Origin: Loigolactobacillus backii
GTDB lineage: Bacteria > Bacillota > Bacilli > Lactobacillales > Lactobacillaceae
Assembly (NCBI RefSeq): GCF_003946275.1
Contig: NZ_RHNQ01000001.1
Location: 1 to 64,000, forward strand
DNA: 64,000 bases
Direction: 5' to 3'
A model generated the notes under the pieces. That model had not been told where the DNA came from, did not search any database, and was given only the letters and a program-made list of their open reading frames with translations. Below are positions 129 to 51,260 of this stretch, piece after piece; position 1 is the first letter of the stretch; the number at the start of each line of letters is the position of its first letter. A program made the translations under genes and the position numbers.

Positions 129-460
129 AGTTAAGCGGCTAGGACAAAAGCCCTAGCCGCTTACTATTTCTGATCATTACTCTAGTGGCGTGTAGCGTTC
201 ATATTTAAATTGAATTATATCGCTACCAAAAATAATGCTTATACCACTTGCCATTGAATTACACGTGGGCAGATTTAGGTTAGATTCCATTCCAGTGCGC
301 GAGGACGGAACGCGTGGCGGAATGGTACCTAAACTATTCGTTCCTGTTCCAGTTAGGTTTTAGCGTTTTTAAAACTAGTTAATAGTTTTAAATATGGTCG
401 TTACGATCCACTAGAACGTACGCCCAAAATCAGAGTTCTCGTACCTTTGTCACACCACTG
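129..460 (+). repeat. family A repeat copy A1, interrupted
   Basis: The head hairpin (133-162, 13-bp arms) and the following TTACTATTTC...CTCTAG match copy A7 at 51099. The sequence then departs at 186 and resumes at about 415 with AACGTACGCC, which continues the A7 order. CTAG is present at both junctions (182-185 and 411-414), as expected for a target-site duplication. See the findings for the insert. Confidence 0.7.
274..333. other. compound hairpin inside the insert of repeat A1
   Basis: Three nested complementary blocks are visible: TTTAGGT/ACCTAAA, CCATTCC/GGAATGG and CGCG/CGCG, separated by small internal loops and closed by a 9-nt apex. A second, simple hairpin with 10-bp arms TTTAAAACTA/TAGTTTTAAA lies at 368-392. 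This resembles a structured RNA or a palindromic mobile repeat. No known RNA family is recognised. Confidence 0.5.
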
Positions 461-42995: not shown

Positions 42996-45866
42996 CTACT
43001 TTTTAGTTTTTAGCGAGTTGACATCAAAACGTGGTCGTTTTGCATCACGTTCTAAAATTGGCTTCAAATATTGACCAGTATAACTTGCATCAGTTTCGGC
43101 GATCTTTTCAGGCGTTCCAGTTGCAACAACATAACCGCCTTCCGCACCGCCTTCAGGTCCTAGATCAATTAAATAATCGGCCGTTTTAATAACATCTAAA
43201 TTGTGTTCGATGATTAAAACTGTGTTGCCAGCATCCACAAGTCGATGTAACACGGCCAATAACCGGTTAATATCATCTGAATGTAGGCCAGTTGTCGGTT
43301 CATCTAAAATATAAAAAGTCTTACCCGTTTGGCGCCGGTGTAATTCAGAAGCCAGCTTCATTCGTTGTGCCTCACCACCAGATAAAGTGGTTGCCGGCTG
43401 GCCCAAAGTAATGTAGCCCAACCCGACATCAACAATAGTCTGCAACTTACGTCGAATCTTGGGAATGTTTTCAAAGAACGGCAAGGCTTCATTAACCGTC
43501 ATATTCAAAACATCCGAAATATTTTTATTTTTATACAAAACTTCTAACGTTTCCGAATTGTAGCGACTACCGTGACAAACCTCACAGGGCACGTAAACGT
43601 CGGGCAGAAAGTTCATTTCAATTTTGATGATCCCATCACCCTTACAGGCTTCACAGCGACCACCGCGAACGTTAAAACTGAAACGATTCTTTTTATAGCC
43701 ATGCATTTTGGCTTCATTAGTCTGGGCAAAGAGATCCCGAATATCATCAAAAACACTGGTGTAAGTGGCCGGGTTACTCCGGGGAGTTCGCCCAATTGGA
43801 CTTTGATCGATATCAACTATCTTATCAATATTTTTCACACCCGCCACTGATTTATATTTACCTGGTTTTTGCTTGTTTCGATTTAATTTTTGCGCTAAAA
43901 CACGCTTTAAAATGCTGTTTACTAAGGTTGATTTACCGGATCCAGAGACCCCAGTGACGACAATAAAATCGCCTAACGGAAAATCAACGGTGATATTCTT
44001 CAAGTTATGTTCGGCAGCACCGGTCAAACGAATTTTTTTACCGTTACCTTTACGGCGTTCTTCCGGTAACCGAATATACTTTTTACCAGCTAAATATTGA
44101 CCGGTTAGTGACTTGGGATTAGCCTCAACTTCTTTAGGGGTTCCGGCCGCCATTACCCGGCCACCATTTTCACCCGCTCCCGGGCCAATATCTAATAGAT
44201 AGTCCGCGGCGCGCATAGTGTCTTCATCATGCTCAACGACAATTAACGTATTACCAAGATCCCGCATTGATTTTAATGAACTAATTAAGCGATTGTTATC
44301 TCGTTGGTGGAGACCAATTGATGGTTCATCTAAAATATACAAAACACCGGATAAATTCGAACCAATCTGGGTAGCCAAGCGAATCCGTTGCGCTTCACCA
44401 CCAGATAAGGTTCCAGCAGAACGACTTAAATTAAGGTAATCCAAACCAACATTTTTCAAGAAATTCAATCGATCAGTAACTTCCTTAAGAATTGGTTTGG
44501 CAATAGTTAACTCTTTTTCAGTTAGTTTTAATCCTTGGAAAAATTCTAAGGAACGATTAATCGCGTATTCGGAAACCTCAGCAATATGCTTACCGTTTAC
44601 TTTAACGGCAAGTGCTTGCGGGTTTAACCGGTAACCATGGCAAACGGGACAAGTTAATTCCGTCATGTATTGCCTCATCTGTGTCCGTGTAAAGTCACTG
44701 TTGGTATCGCGGTAACGTCGAGAAACGTTATTCACGACGCCTTCAAAGGTTGCGTCAACATCCCGAATTCCACCAAAATCATTTTCGTAATGAAAATGGA
44801 ACGTTCGGTCACCAGCACCATATAAAACTAAATTACGCTGCTCTTCAGGTAACTTATTAAATGGCTTTTCCATATCAATACCAAAACTTGCTGCGGCCTG
44901 GGCCAACATCTGGGGGTAATACTGGGATGAAATCGGGTTCCACGGTGCAATTGCCCCCGCTTTTAGAGTCAACGTTGGGTCAGGCACAATCAAATCTTCG
45001 TCAACTTCCAATTTAGCCCCTAAACCATCACACTCGGGACAGGCCCCAAAAGGTGCGTTAAATGAAAATAACCGCGGTTCCAACTCGCCAATCGTAAAGC
45101 CACAGTAAGGGCACGCATAATGTTCAGAAAACATGATCGGTTCGCCGCCAATAATGTCCGCCGTTGCGTACCCATCAGATAACCGCAACGCCGCCTCGAA
45201 TGAATCAAATAGCCGTGAGCGTGCGCTGGCCTTAACAACAATTCGGTCAATGACGATATCAATATCGTGTTTCTTATTCTTTTCCAGCTCAATGTCATCG
45301 CTAATATCATAAATTTCACCATCAATTTTAACGCGGACATAGCCCTCTTTTTGAATTCGCTGCAGGACCTTTTTATGTTGGCCTTTTTTGGCCCGAATAA
45401 TTGGTGACATAATTTGTAATTTCGTTTTTTCTGGTAAGTTTAATACTCGATTGACCATTTGTTCGACGGTTTGACTACTAATTTCTGTCCCATCATTAGG
45501 ACAAATGGGATGGCCAACCCGTGCCCACAGTAACCTTAGGTAATCATTAATTTCCGTAACGGTTCCAACTGTCGACCGGGGATTCTTTGAGGTTGTTTTT
45601 TGATCGATTGAGATAGCTGGGCTTAATCCATCGATAGAATCAACGTCAGGTTTATCCATTTGACCCAAGAACTGTCGTGCGTAGGCCGATAAACTTTCCA
45701 CATAGCGTCGTTGTCCTTCTGCATAAAGCGTATCAAACGCAAGTGAGCTTTTCCCTGAACCCGATAAACCAGTGATGACGACTAATTTATCCCGGGGAAT
45801 AGTAACGTCGATATCCTTTAAATTATGCGCACGAGCGCCGTGAATGATAATTTTATCATTTGCCAA
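42996..45866 (-). CDS. uvrA: excinuclease ABC subunit A
   Basis: UvrA finds bulky DNA damage and loads UvrB in nucleotide excision repair. The 956-residue protein has two ABC modules with Walker A GLSGSGKS and GVSGSGKS, and paired zinc-finger Cys motifs (CPYCGF...CPECDG and CEACKGDG...CEVCHG). The TTG at 45866 has GAGGAGG at 8 nt; the longer open frame upstream (45938) is rejected. It follows uvrB after 93 bp without a terminator, so they form an operon. Confidence 0.97.
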
Positions 45867-45959
45867 TAAATTTTCCTCCTCAGTTCTTAGGACTAATTTT
45901 AAGTTGAAACGCAAATGAACGTGCCAAACAAAGGTCATCCGATTGCGATTGTCTAAAAT

Positions 45960-47966
45960 TTATTCAATTGCTGCTTTTAGTTCTAAGATTGTATCCCGTA
46001 AAGTTGCTGCCTGTTCAAAATCTAATTTCTTGGCGGCGGCCTTCATCTGCTCTTCAAGCCGACCAATCATTTCTTTTTGTTCTTTCTTTGACATATCCGT
46101 AAAATCTGGTCCTTTAATGGCACCAGTTTCTTGGTGATCGTCCTTCGCCGCTTTCGTTGGTGAAATTAGATCACGAATTGGCTTAACAATGGTCGTTGGT
46201 GTGACGTGATGGACCTCATTAAACTTCTCTTGGGTGGTTCGTCGCCGTTTAGTTTCATCCATTGCCGCTTGCATTGAATCAGTAACCCGATCAGCGTACA
46301 TAATGACAGTCCCATCAACATTTCGTGAAGCACGACCAATTGTTTGAATCAGTGAGCGTTCACTCCGTAAGAAACCTTCCTTATCGGCATCTAAAATGGC
46401 AATCAGCGAAACTTCAGGAACATCAATTCCTTCCCGCAATAAATTAATACCAATCAGAACATCAAATTTGCCCAAACGTAGATCACGAATAATCTGTGTT
46501 CGCTCTAACGTTTTTATATCACTGTGTAAATAACGAACTTTAATTCCTAATTCTTTCAAATAGTCAGTTAAATCTTCCGCCATTTTCTTGGTCAAGGTTG
46601 TTACAAAAACACGTTCATGGCGCTCTACACGCTTATTAATTTCGCCTACAAGATCATCAATTTGACCCATAATTGGCCGAACTTCAATTTTAGGATCTAA
46701 CAGTCCAGTTGGTCGAATGATTTGTTCCGCGACGTGATCCGTTTGCGAATACTCATACGGACCAGGTGTTGCTGAAACGTAAACAATTTGATTAACGTGC
46801 TGTTCAAATTCATTTAGTTTTAGTGGTCGGTTGTCCAGCGCACTTGGTAACCGAAAACCGTAATCAACTAACATTTGTTTCCGAGCTCGGTCACCGTTAT
46901 ACATCCCCCGAATCTGCGGCATCGTTGCGTGAGATTCATCAATCATAATCAAGAAGTCCTTGGGAAAGAAATCAATTAATGTATACGGTGGCTCACCAGC
47001 TTTTCGACCCTCCATGTGGCGAGAATAGTTCTCAATTCCGGAAGTGTAGCCCATTTCGCGCAACATTTCAATATCATAATTGGTCCGCTGCTCTAGTCGC
47101 TGCGCCTCCAATAATTTATGCTGATCGGTTAACTCCTTCAAACGCGTCTTTAACTCGGCCTCAATGCTAACAATTGCGTGTTCCATCTGCTCATCGTTGG
47201 TCATAAAATGAGTTGCCGGGAATATGGCCACGTGATCGCGGTCACCCACAACTTCACCAGTTAGCGCATCTACTTCACGGATACGATCAATTTCATCACC
47301 AAAGAATTCAATTCGTAACGCCCGTTCATCCCGGGAAGCTGGAAAAATTTCAACAACATCCCCGCGGACACGAAAACGTCCCCGCTGAAAATCAATATCG
47401 TTACGTTCAAATTGAATATCAATTAAACGGCGCAGTAATTCATTGCGTTCCAATTCTTGGCCAACTCGCAATGATAAAACGTGATCACGATACTCATCCG
47501 GACTGCCTAAACCAAAAATACAAGAAACCGAAGCGACAACAATCACATCGTTACGTTCTAATAGTGAACTCGTTGCCGAATGGCGTAATTTATCAATTTC
47601 ATCATTAATGCTAGAATCCTTTTCAATGTACGTATCGCTTGACGGTACATAGGCTTCTGGTTGGTAATAATCATAATAACTTACAAAATATTCAACCGCG
47701 TTATTAGGGAAAAATTGTTTGAATTCGCCGTATAACTGACCAGCTAAAGTTTTATTGTGGGCTATCACCAAAGTCGGTTTTCCAACATTCTTAATCACTT
47801 CACTCATTGTAAACGTCTTACCAGTCCCGGTTGCCCCTAATAGGATCTGAGCCTTTTCACCATTTTCAATTCCCTCAGTCAATTGTTTAATTGCCTGTGG
47901 CTGATCACCAGCAGGTTGATAAGGTGAAACTAAATCAAAATCACGATGTTCTTCACGTTGAATCAA
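45960..47966 (-). CDS. uvrB: excinuclease ABC subunit B
   Basis: UvrB verifies the lesion and recruits UvrC. The 668-residue protein has Walker A GATGTGKT (44-51), the beta-hairpin region with [12 protein letters not shown], helicase motifs including RASRN, and a C-terminal UVR motif that binds UvrC. The TTG at 47966 has GAGGAGG at about 9 nt, better than the ATG at 48011. The leader is long and carries a tandem duplication and an SOS-like box. Confidence 0.97.
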
Positions 47967-50864: not shown

Positions 50865-51260
50865 TAAAACGTACCTCCTAAAGTCATTAAATCCTTATTT
50901 AAAATTTACGTGGTCACCCCACGTCGGATCTTTAATTCAATAATTAGTATACTACAAAAGGCAGCGCTTTTATAAAACAACTCTAAAAAGCTCAGAATAA
51001 TTTCATTAATTGCTCAAAATTTAATAATCAGTTGCGTGGCTTAACCAACTTCCAGTTAGATTCTTCAATACCTAATTTAGTAAATTTACGCAAATTAAAA
51101 GCAGCTGGGACAAAAAGCCCTAGCCGCTTACTATTTTCGATCATTACTCTAGAACGTGCGCCAAAAGTCTGGGTCACGTACCTAATCCAGTAACCATAAT
51201 TAGCCTACGTTACGCAGTAAACCTAAAACCGACTTTTATCCTACTCCCTTAGCTAAAGCC
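50865..51260. other. 396-bp intergenic region with a family A repeat
   Basis: No gene. The first 230 bp are AT-rich and hold the pgcA promoter area, though no convincing promoter was picked out. The rest is family A copy A7 (51099-51246), which runs up to the trxB end and may terminate transcription from either side. Confidence 0.6.
51099..51246 (+). repeat. family A repeat copy A7
   Basis: AGCAGCTGGGACAAAAAGCC at the head, CTCTAGAACGTGCGCCAAAAG in the body and GACTTTTATCCTACTCCC at the tail. The inner palindrome is shorter than in A4 (about 30 bp missing). Confidence 0.75.

Follow-up and report, generated by a model that had tools for sequence, protein, structure and literature searches.

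Structure of the interrupted repeat

Near the start of the window (the whole 64,000-nt stretch of Loigolactobacillus backii DNA analysed here), a copy of the repeat termed family A was found to be split in two by a structured insert. The left half of this copy, A1 (135-181, forward strand), runs up to CTCTAG (180-185), and the right half (415-460, forward strand), which is shortened relative to full family A as judged from a 30-copy alignment, resumes at AACGTACGCC (415). A profile built from 30 genome copies of family A recovered the two halves as separate matches, at 135-185 (E 2e-14) and 409-447, together with six further family A copies in the window. One CTAG is present at each junction (182-185 and 411-414), and uninterrupted family A copies, such as that at 51103-51246, contain a lone CTAG at the corresponding point; with the empty sites of two other copies described below, these two tetranucleotides are read as the left and right copies of a target duplication. 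An earlier note, made from the letters of the window, had described A1 as split by a structured insert with CTAG at both junctions, and this description was confirmed by re-reading the coordinates and by the separate profile matches.

The insert body (186-410, forward strand) measures 225 bp and is unrelated to family A; with the second CTAG (411-414) included, its length is 229 bp. Its ends, at 186-209 (forward strand) and 387-410 (reverse strand), are imperfect terminal inverted repeats, with 18 of the first 24 bases agreeing (by eye), and both recur in other copies in the genome. The earlier note had called them only loosely alike, yet they are real terminal inverted repeats.

Two hairpins, both noticed earlier, were also found on the forward strand. 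The first, a three-tier structure (274-333), had a DNA fold of -12.1 kcal/mol (z -3.2), which was equalled by 2 out of 200 shuffles. The second (368-392), located within the right end and confirmed from the sequence, has a 10-bp stem with arms TTTAAAACTA and TAGTTTTAAA, and similar sequence was seen in many of 28 right ends (by eye). When the whole 225 bp were folded as RNA, the fold was modestly better than that of the shuffles (z -1.8; 13 out of 200 equally good).

The repeat unit of family A is about 170 bp long, contains an inner palindrome, and is bounded by sequences like GAGGCTGGGACAAAAGTC at one end and GGGAGTGGGACAAAAGTC, in inverted orientation, at the other; it has the look of a mobile or structured family in its own right. 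Upstream of A1, positions 1-77 of the window are the final part of a multi-copy sequence that may be an insertion sequence; three other contigs of the assembly (C58, C67, and C79) likewise begin with it.

A dispersed family of longer elements

A search of the genome with positions 120-470 of the window gave 55 matches, to family A and to the insert. Relatives of the insert were found at 21 loci, that of the window included, to which three weaker ones (C104, C86, and C24) can be added, for a total of about 24 loci, sorted by eye from the match lists. These loci lie mostly outside family A. At many of them, the left and right parts of the insert matched the two ends of a longer element, and the window copy corresponds to q12-147 joined to q764-852 of the full copy L005. 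From these end matches, the 229 bp, taken in the earlier note for the mobile unit itself, are instead best described as what internal deletion has left of a transposable element that is non-coding and about 0.8 kb long.

Full copies of this element (L005, L004, C111, C89a, and C89b, as well as C1:201156-202021 in the genus genome G002) are about 0.77-0.87 kb long, and the longest internal open reading frame was 52 aa in the two full copies for which reading frames were listed (L004 and L166). Inverted matches within the body of the full element revealed two homologous folded units in opposite orientation. With L005 as the query, 80 matches were obtained in the genome, 19 of which were confined to a short inner repeat that is found on its own as well.

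No match was found in a plasmid collection, searched with the full copy and the window insert, or in a phage collection, searched with the full copy. In a collection of named genomes, from which the genome of the window may itself be absent, the exact core pattern was present in only two records, both of Loigolactobacillus iwatensis JCM 18838; we infer that genome G004 is an assembly of this strain. The genome of the window and G004 are close sisters, with 93-94% identity across the 1.3-1.4 kb shared at the locus.

Other repeats were observed within or beside the element. The short inner repeat, of about 98 bp (L005 about 2053-2154, q564-665), occurs at 19 other places in the genome, also alone, as well as in at least five other genomes of the genus, and is nested within some full copies; copies C81, C51a, L141, L146, and L147 do not carry it. 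Another nested repeat, of about 118 bp and starting CGACTTGGACTTGCC, was present in both arms, at matching points and in mirrored orientation, with GTG junctions (by eye). It was found in C51a, C133, C2, C51b, C83a, C35, and C71 (L041, L042, L045, L049, L043, L044, and L057, respectively), at about 1950-2300 of L102, and in tandem in G005. Finally, a third repeat, with a motif like AGTGTTTGGAAAA adjoining CTAG (by eye), was seen in the flanks of C70, C82, C35, C111, and C2.

Target duplication and empty sites

Two empty sites were found by comparing the sister species. At the first, a copy of the window's genome (C89:33.9-34.7k) is absent from contig C1 of G004, where an intact family A reads TTAG. 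The flanks of this copy, which lies in family A in the opposite orientation (query L003:400-2100), matched G004 C1:45309-45777 (90% identity) and 45774-46241 (94%), and the two matches overlapped by 4 bases (45774-45777). At the second, the G004 copy L144 (C23:88163) is absent from contig C74 of the window's genome, which shows one CTAG versus two in the filled copy; the flanks match at 95% identity over 569 query bases and at 98% over 59. These sequence comparisons are most simply read as movement of the element, with duplication of 4 bases, in each of the two lineages since the split of the sister species. The 4-bp duplication put forward earlier was thus corroborated by the empty sites of two other copies, one target being CTAG and the other TTAG. 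Moreover, the idea of a second, non-coding, CTAG-flanked mobile unit nested in the first was upheld by the same two cross-species empty sites and by the presence of the element at many sites without family A.

The window copy had no empty counterpart among the genus genomes compared: its L. iwatensis ortholog (G004) carries the insert and family A at the same point, and six other genomes of the genus match only from about position 528 onwards. The search for an empty site that the earlier note had recommended therefore succeeded for two other copies, and not for that of the window.

Among 42 loci (22 from the window's genome and 20 from G004, the latter chosen among the matches listed and being only part of the copies in G004), 58 ends were recognised, 38 of which were bordered by CTAG. 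Both ends were recognised in 16 copies, with CTAG on both sides in 7 of them. The 20 ends without CTAG included both ends of L005 (TCAG and CCAA), and one end each of C70 and G4_138, where CTAG was found three bases further in (by eye).

The family A profile matched an element border at 5 out of the 24 loci of the genome (C1, C89a, C89b, C83a, and C104), some of these 24 lacking an end. At C104, family A was present on the right side only, and at C111 a piece of family A lies about 70 bp away. Since the insertions into family A are found in both orientations, at least two of them were independent. The five copies, lying at a family A CTAG in both orientations, could be taken to mean that the element homes specifically to family A; we consider this very improbable. 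The window contains 135 CTAGs, 35 of which lie outside open reading frames of at least 80 aa, and 7 of these 35 are the family A site, so that about one insertion in five would be expected there from the choice of CTAG alone, which is about the share observed. Exclusive homing to family A was rejected on these CTAG counts.

The presence of the insert exactly inside family A in both sister species would also agree with its being an ordinary part of a longer form of family A, the case that the earlier note had set against its own proposal. This has next to no probability, given that family A borders the element at only 5 of 24 loci, that the insert is missing from all 30 family A copies in the alignment, which were retrieved with an uninterrupted query, and that for another copy the sister species shows an empty site in family A. 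The border counts, the alignment, and the empty site together refute a longer form of family A.

Origin of the 225-bp form

The arms beside the core of the element are of two types. Of 14 loci of the two sister genomes with a recognised arm on each side, 13 had each type on the side for which it is named; the remaining one, L146, was read as having the right type on both sides, the left one with 5/17 mismatches. In the window copy, the left arm is of the right type, in its G004 ortholog the right arm is of the left type, and a G002 copy shows the flipped arm order in full. The left side of the window copy agreed better with a flipped reference (89.9% over 138 positions) than with an unflipped one (85.4% over 137), as did the right side of the ortholog (86.2% versus 81.0% over 116), and the remaining side of each fitted both references about equally. 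The window copy and its ortholog seem to descend from one core-flipped form, trimmed at different points, and the three-tier hairpin at 274-333 would be the leftover of the long inverted arms that flanked the lost core, in core-flipped order. From this comparison, at least the last trimming of the window copy occurred in place, after the split of the sister species, whether the copy was long or short when it landed.

Nine orthologous pairs were compared, and large losses in one species were observed in four: compared with C81, L150 is missing about 500 bp from between the arms, the flanks overlapping by 4 bases where they meet; parts of C83a are absent from L149 and parts of C89a from L153; and C35, in the genome of the window, is without parts of L139. 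The other five pairs, that of the window included, showed little or no difference in length.

Alternatively, the insert could be a true 225-bp MITE that moved in its present short form, having lost its interior before it landed in family A. Several short forms do exist (C104, L150, L151, L157, and C1), and MITEs of 100 and 228 nt are described from Pseudomonas syringae (PMC3189936). However, the internal junctions differ among the short forms, the ortholog of the window copy was trimmed differently, and in the pair C81/L150, where the form is of the same kind, the two members differ by an internal loss of about 500 bp. We therefore regard movement of the short form as unlikely, and favour trimming in place.

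Ends of the element and search for a transposase

The CTAG-duplicating ends were observed in the species of the window, L. iwatensis, and G002. In G005 and G007, the core of the element is bounded instead by ends of the GGTTCTTTCTGAA type, and one similar end was found in G003 (L103). Both ends of this second type were recognised in L094, L095, L101, L108, and L114, those of L095 and L101 fitting the pattern only with 5-7 substitutions. All five copies were flanked by repeats of 6-8 bases, most of them A/T-rich, whose exact length is uncertain because the script that found them allowed small shifts.

No autonomous partner was found by end patterns, with up to 2 mismatches, in the genome of the window and eight genomes of the genus, and no transposase with the ends of the element was present among the matches to PF01609 (2 in the window's genome), PF13751 (one in the eight genomes, below the cut-off), and PF13586 (17 in 5 of the eight genomes). 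We examined 22 stretches carrying a transposase, several of which overlap and represent one place, for inverted ends bounded by CTAG or YTAR. Such ends were found in L207-L211 (G003; 14 of 16 bases) and in L203 (G002; 12 of 16), both unlike the ends of the element; the remaining stretches, at 7 to 11 of 16, were taken as background. No transposase was recognised, by eye in the lists of open reading frames, at the extra single-end matches C86 (L158) and L167-L173.

The folded core

The left core unit (q96-345 of L005) was present in G002, G005, and G007, with an identity to L005 of 84-91% for the aligned first-unit copies from these genomes, and of 75% and 70% for two rows representing the second, inverted unit (L094 and L108, respectively). 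By comparison, the yebC region showed 81-83% identity between the window's genome and the same three genomes; as the core copies compared were the best-scoring ones, this comparison leans towards high identity. The core alignment comprised 25 distinct sequences out of 29 unit-covering matches, partial matches being left out, and the rows of alignment A1 came from five genomes (G000, G002, G004, G005, and G007).

The core unit fits a three-way junction of 57 pairs, with 98.4% of the cells paired. Nineteen of the 57 pairs had changed on both sides, as against a shuffled mean of 6.0, and none of 500 shuffles reached this number; the slid control of the 25-row alignment gave 2-3 double-changed pairs. 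When the second-unit rows L094 and L108 were left out, 8 of the 57 pairs remained (shuffled mean 3.2, maximum 6; slid control 0-3). Such counts are to be read with the caveat that related sequences inflate the number of compensatory changes and that template switching in hairpins can mimic selection. Because the two second-unit rows account for 11 of the 19 pairs, our estimate for a functional core, low from the start, was lowered slightly further.

G-U cells numbered 23 and A-C cells 13; because two changes common to many rows account for 15 of the 23 G-U cells, no strand was identified. A full copy folded far better than its shuffles (z -13.6, 20 shuffles), in a structure that pairs the left half with the right half and does not form two separate junctions. 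Rfam gave no match at the gathering score for L003-L006, the best matches of L005 below this threshold being snoR117 (E 0.016) and mir-306 (E 0.2).

These results raise the possibility that the full element is in the first place a gene for a structured RNA, or a folded DNA signal, spreading as the cargo of transposon ends, the window copy being dead. Two observations speak for this view: the compensatory changes in the fold exceed the shuffles with or without the divergent rows, and one core occurs together with two kinds of ends. It is weakened by the reliance of most of the compensatory pairs on two rows, by the lack of an Rfam family, and by the lack of a clear strand preference, as separate G-U and A-C changes were similar in number (by eye); moreover, inverted repeats can be brought into agreement by replication, with no selection involved. 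We consider it possible, with the balance of probability clearly against it. The same low probability is given to the more general proposal that a non-coding core of twin inverted three-way junctions, spread throughout the genus and selected for its fold, may be packaged between at least two kinds of ends. If this were true, the core would act as mobile cargo, in the form of structured RNA or folded DNA, with a function of its own, and the window insert would be what stays after deletion of the cargo; a core carried in this way by both kinds of ends would constitute a mobile non-coding structure without an Rfam family.

Proposed history of the insert

Overall, the insert is very probably the remnant of a non-autonomous, gene-less transposable element that was inserted at CTAG and later internally deleted. 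The full element, of about 0.77-0.87 kb and with imperfect terminal inverted repeats starting TGSNRYGTAGCG, would have inserted at a CTAG, which was thereby duplicated. The palindromic CTAG would have been cut with a 4-nt stagger by a DDE transposase supplied in trans, the IS5 type being the likeliest. As orthology and arm type indicate, a core-inverted copy was sitting in family A copy A1 before the split from L. iwatensis. Its long inverted arms may then have provoked the internal deletion, probably through replication slippage across the hairpin, a process proposed from an outcome that is directly seen; two ends and a stub hairpin would have been left. The remnant, having lost both structured units, probably does nothing now.

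The split repeat is thus explained by before-and-after evidence from a sister species, and the case illustrates the in-place decay of a large fold-back element into MITE-like stubs. As a nested mobile unit, the insert is genuine but of an ordinary kind; the greater interest lies in the folded core that occurs with two kinds of ends.

Comparison with known systems

In the one open literature library covered, no publication on this element was found by title or abstract. The element resembles MITEs in lacking a transposase gene (L004 and L166, longest open reading frame 52 aa) and in having terminal inverted repeats, a target site duplication, and multiple dispersed copies. MITEs are usually under about 600 bp, a size range to be compared with 225 bp for the window copy and about 0.77-0.87 kb for the full copies. 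Since no autonomous partner sharing its ends was found, either by end patterns or among PF01609, PF13751, and PF13586 matches, we call it MITE-like and not a MITE of a named insertion sequence. A 4-bp duplication of the CTAG/YTAR type, as observed here, is typical of IS5 relatives, in agreement with MITEPsy1 and L207-L211; no IS5-type transposase reading frame was present in the full copies L004 and L166.

A likeness to REPINs is also apparent, non-autonomous elements in which a pair of inverted hairpin units moves together. The units of REPINs are tens of bases long and rely on a RAYT enzyme, and are not known to have terminal repeats and a target duplication of the kind seen here.

Within the genus, a PF13586 insertion sequence is present in G003 as five copies (L207-L211, at 1477-2335 in each), with CTAG on both sides. 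We infer that it belongs to the IS5 family; its transposase is encoded in two overlapping frames of 123 and 143 aa (read in L207). This insertion sequence is like the element in being CTAG-flanked and in its unit of about 0.85 kb, but differs in encoding a transposase and in its ends (GGTCCGTCTGAAAACT versus TGSNRYGTAGCG). The single PF13586 match in the genome of the window had no such CTAG-bounded ends. The five copies suggest that a CTAG-duplicating transposase exists in the genus.

The SMRs, PATEs, and MITEs of Haloquadratum walsbyi are, as here, families of transposase-free repeats nested in mobile elements, for which the mobilising enzyme is sometimes missing; they belong to another lineage, and a twin folded core is not described in the accessible part of that report (PMC3119063). 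Finally, MITEPsy1 of Pseudomonas syringae pv. phaseolicola is an element of 100 nt whose 18-nt ends (GGAAGGTCTGAAAAAGCC) are related to those of ISPsy2. It is like the element described here in being non-coding, with terminal inverted repeats and a 4-nt duplication (of CTAG or YTAA in MITEPsy1), and in that some copies lie inside other transposons; the present element differs in its length of about 0.8 kb when full, its unrelated ends, and its folded core (PMC3189936). MITEPsy1 is the nearest published parallel that we found for the CTAG duplication (PMC3189936).
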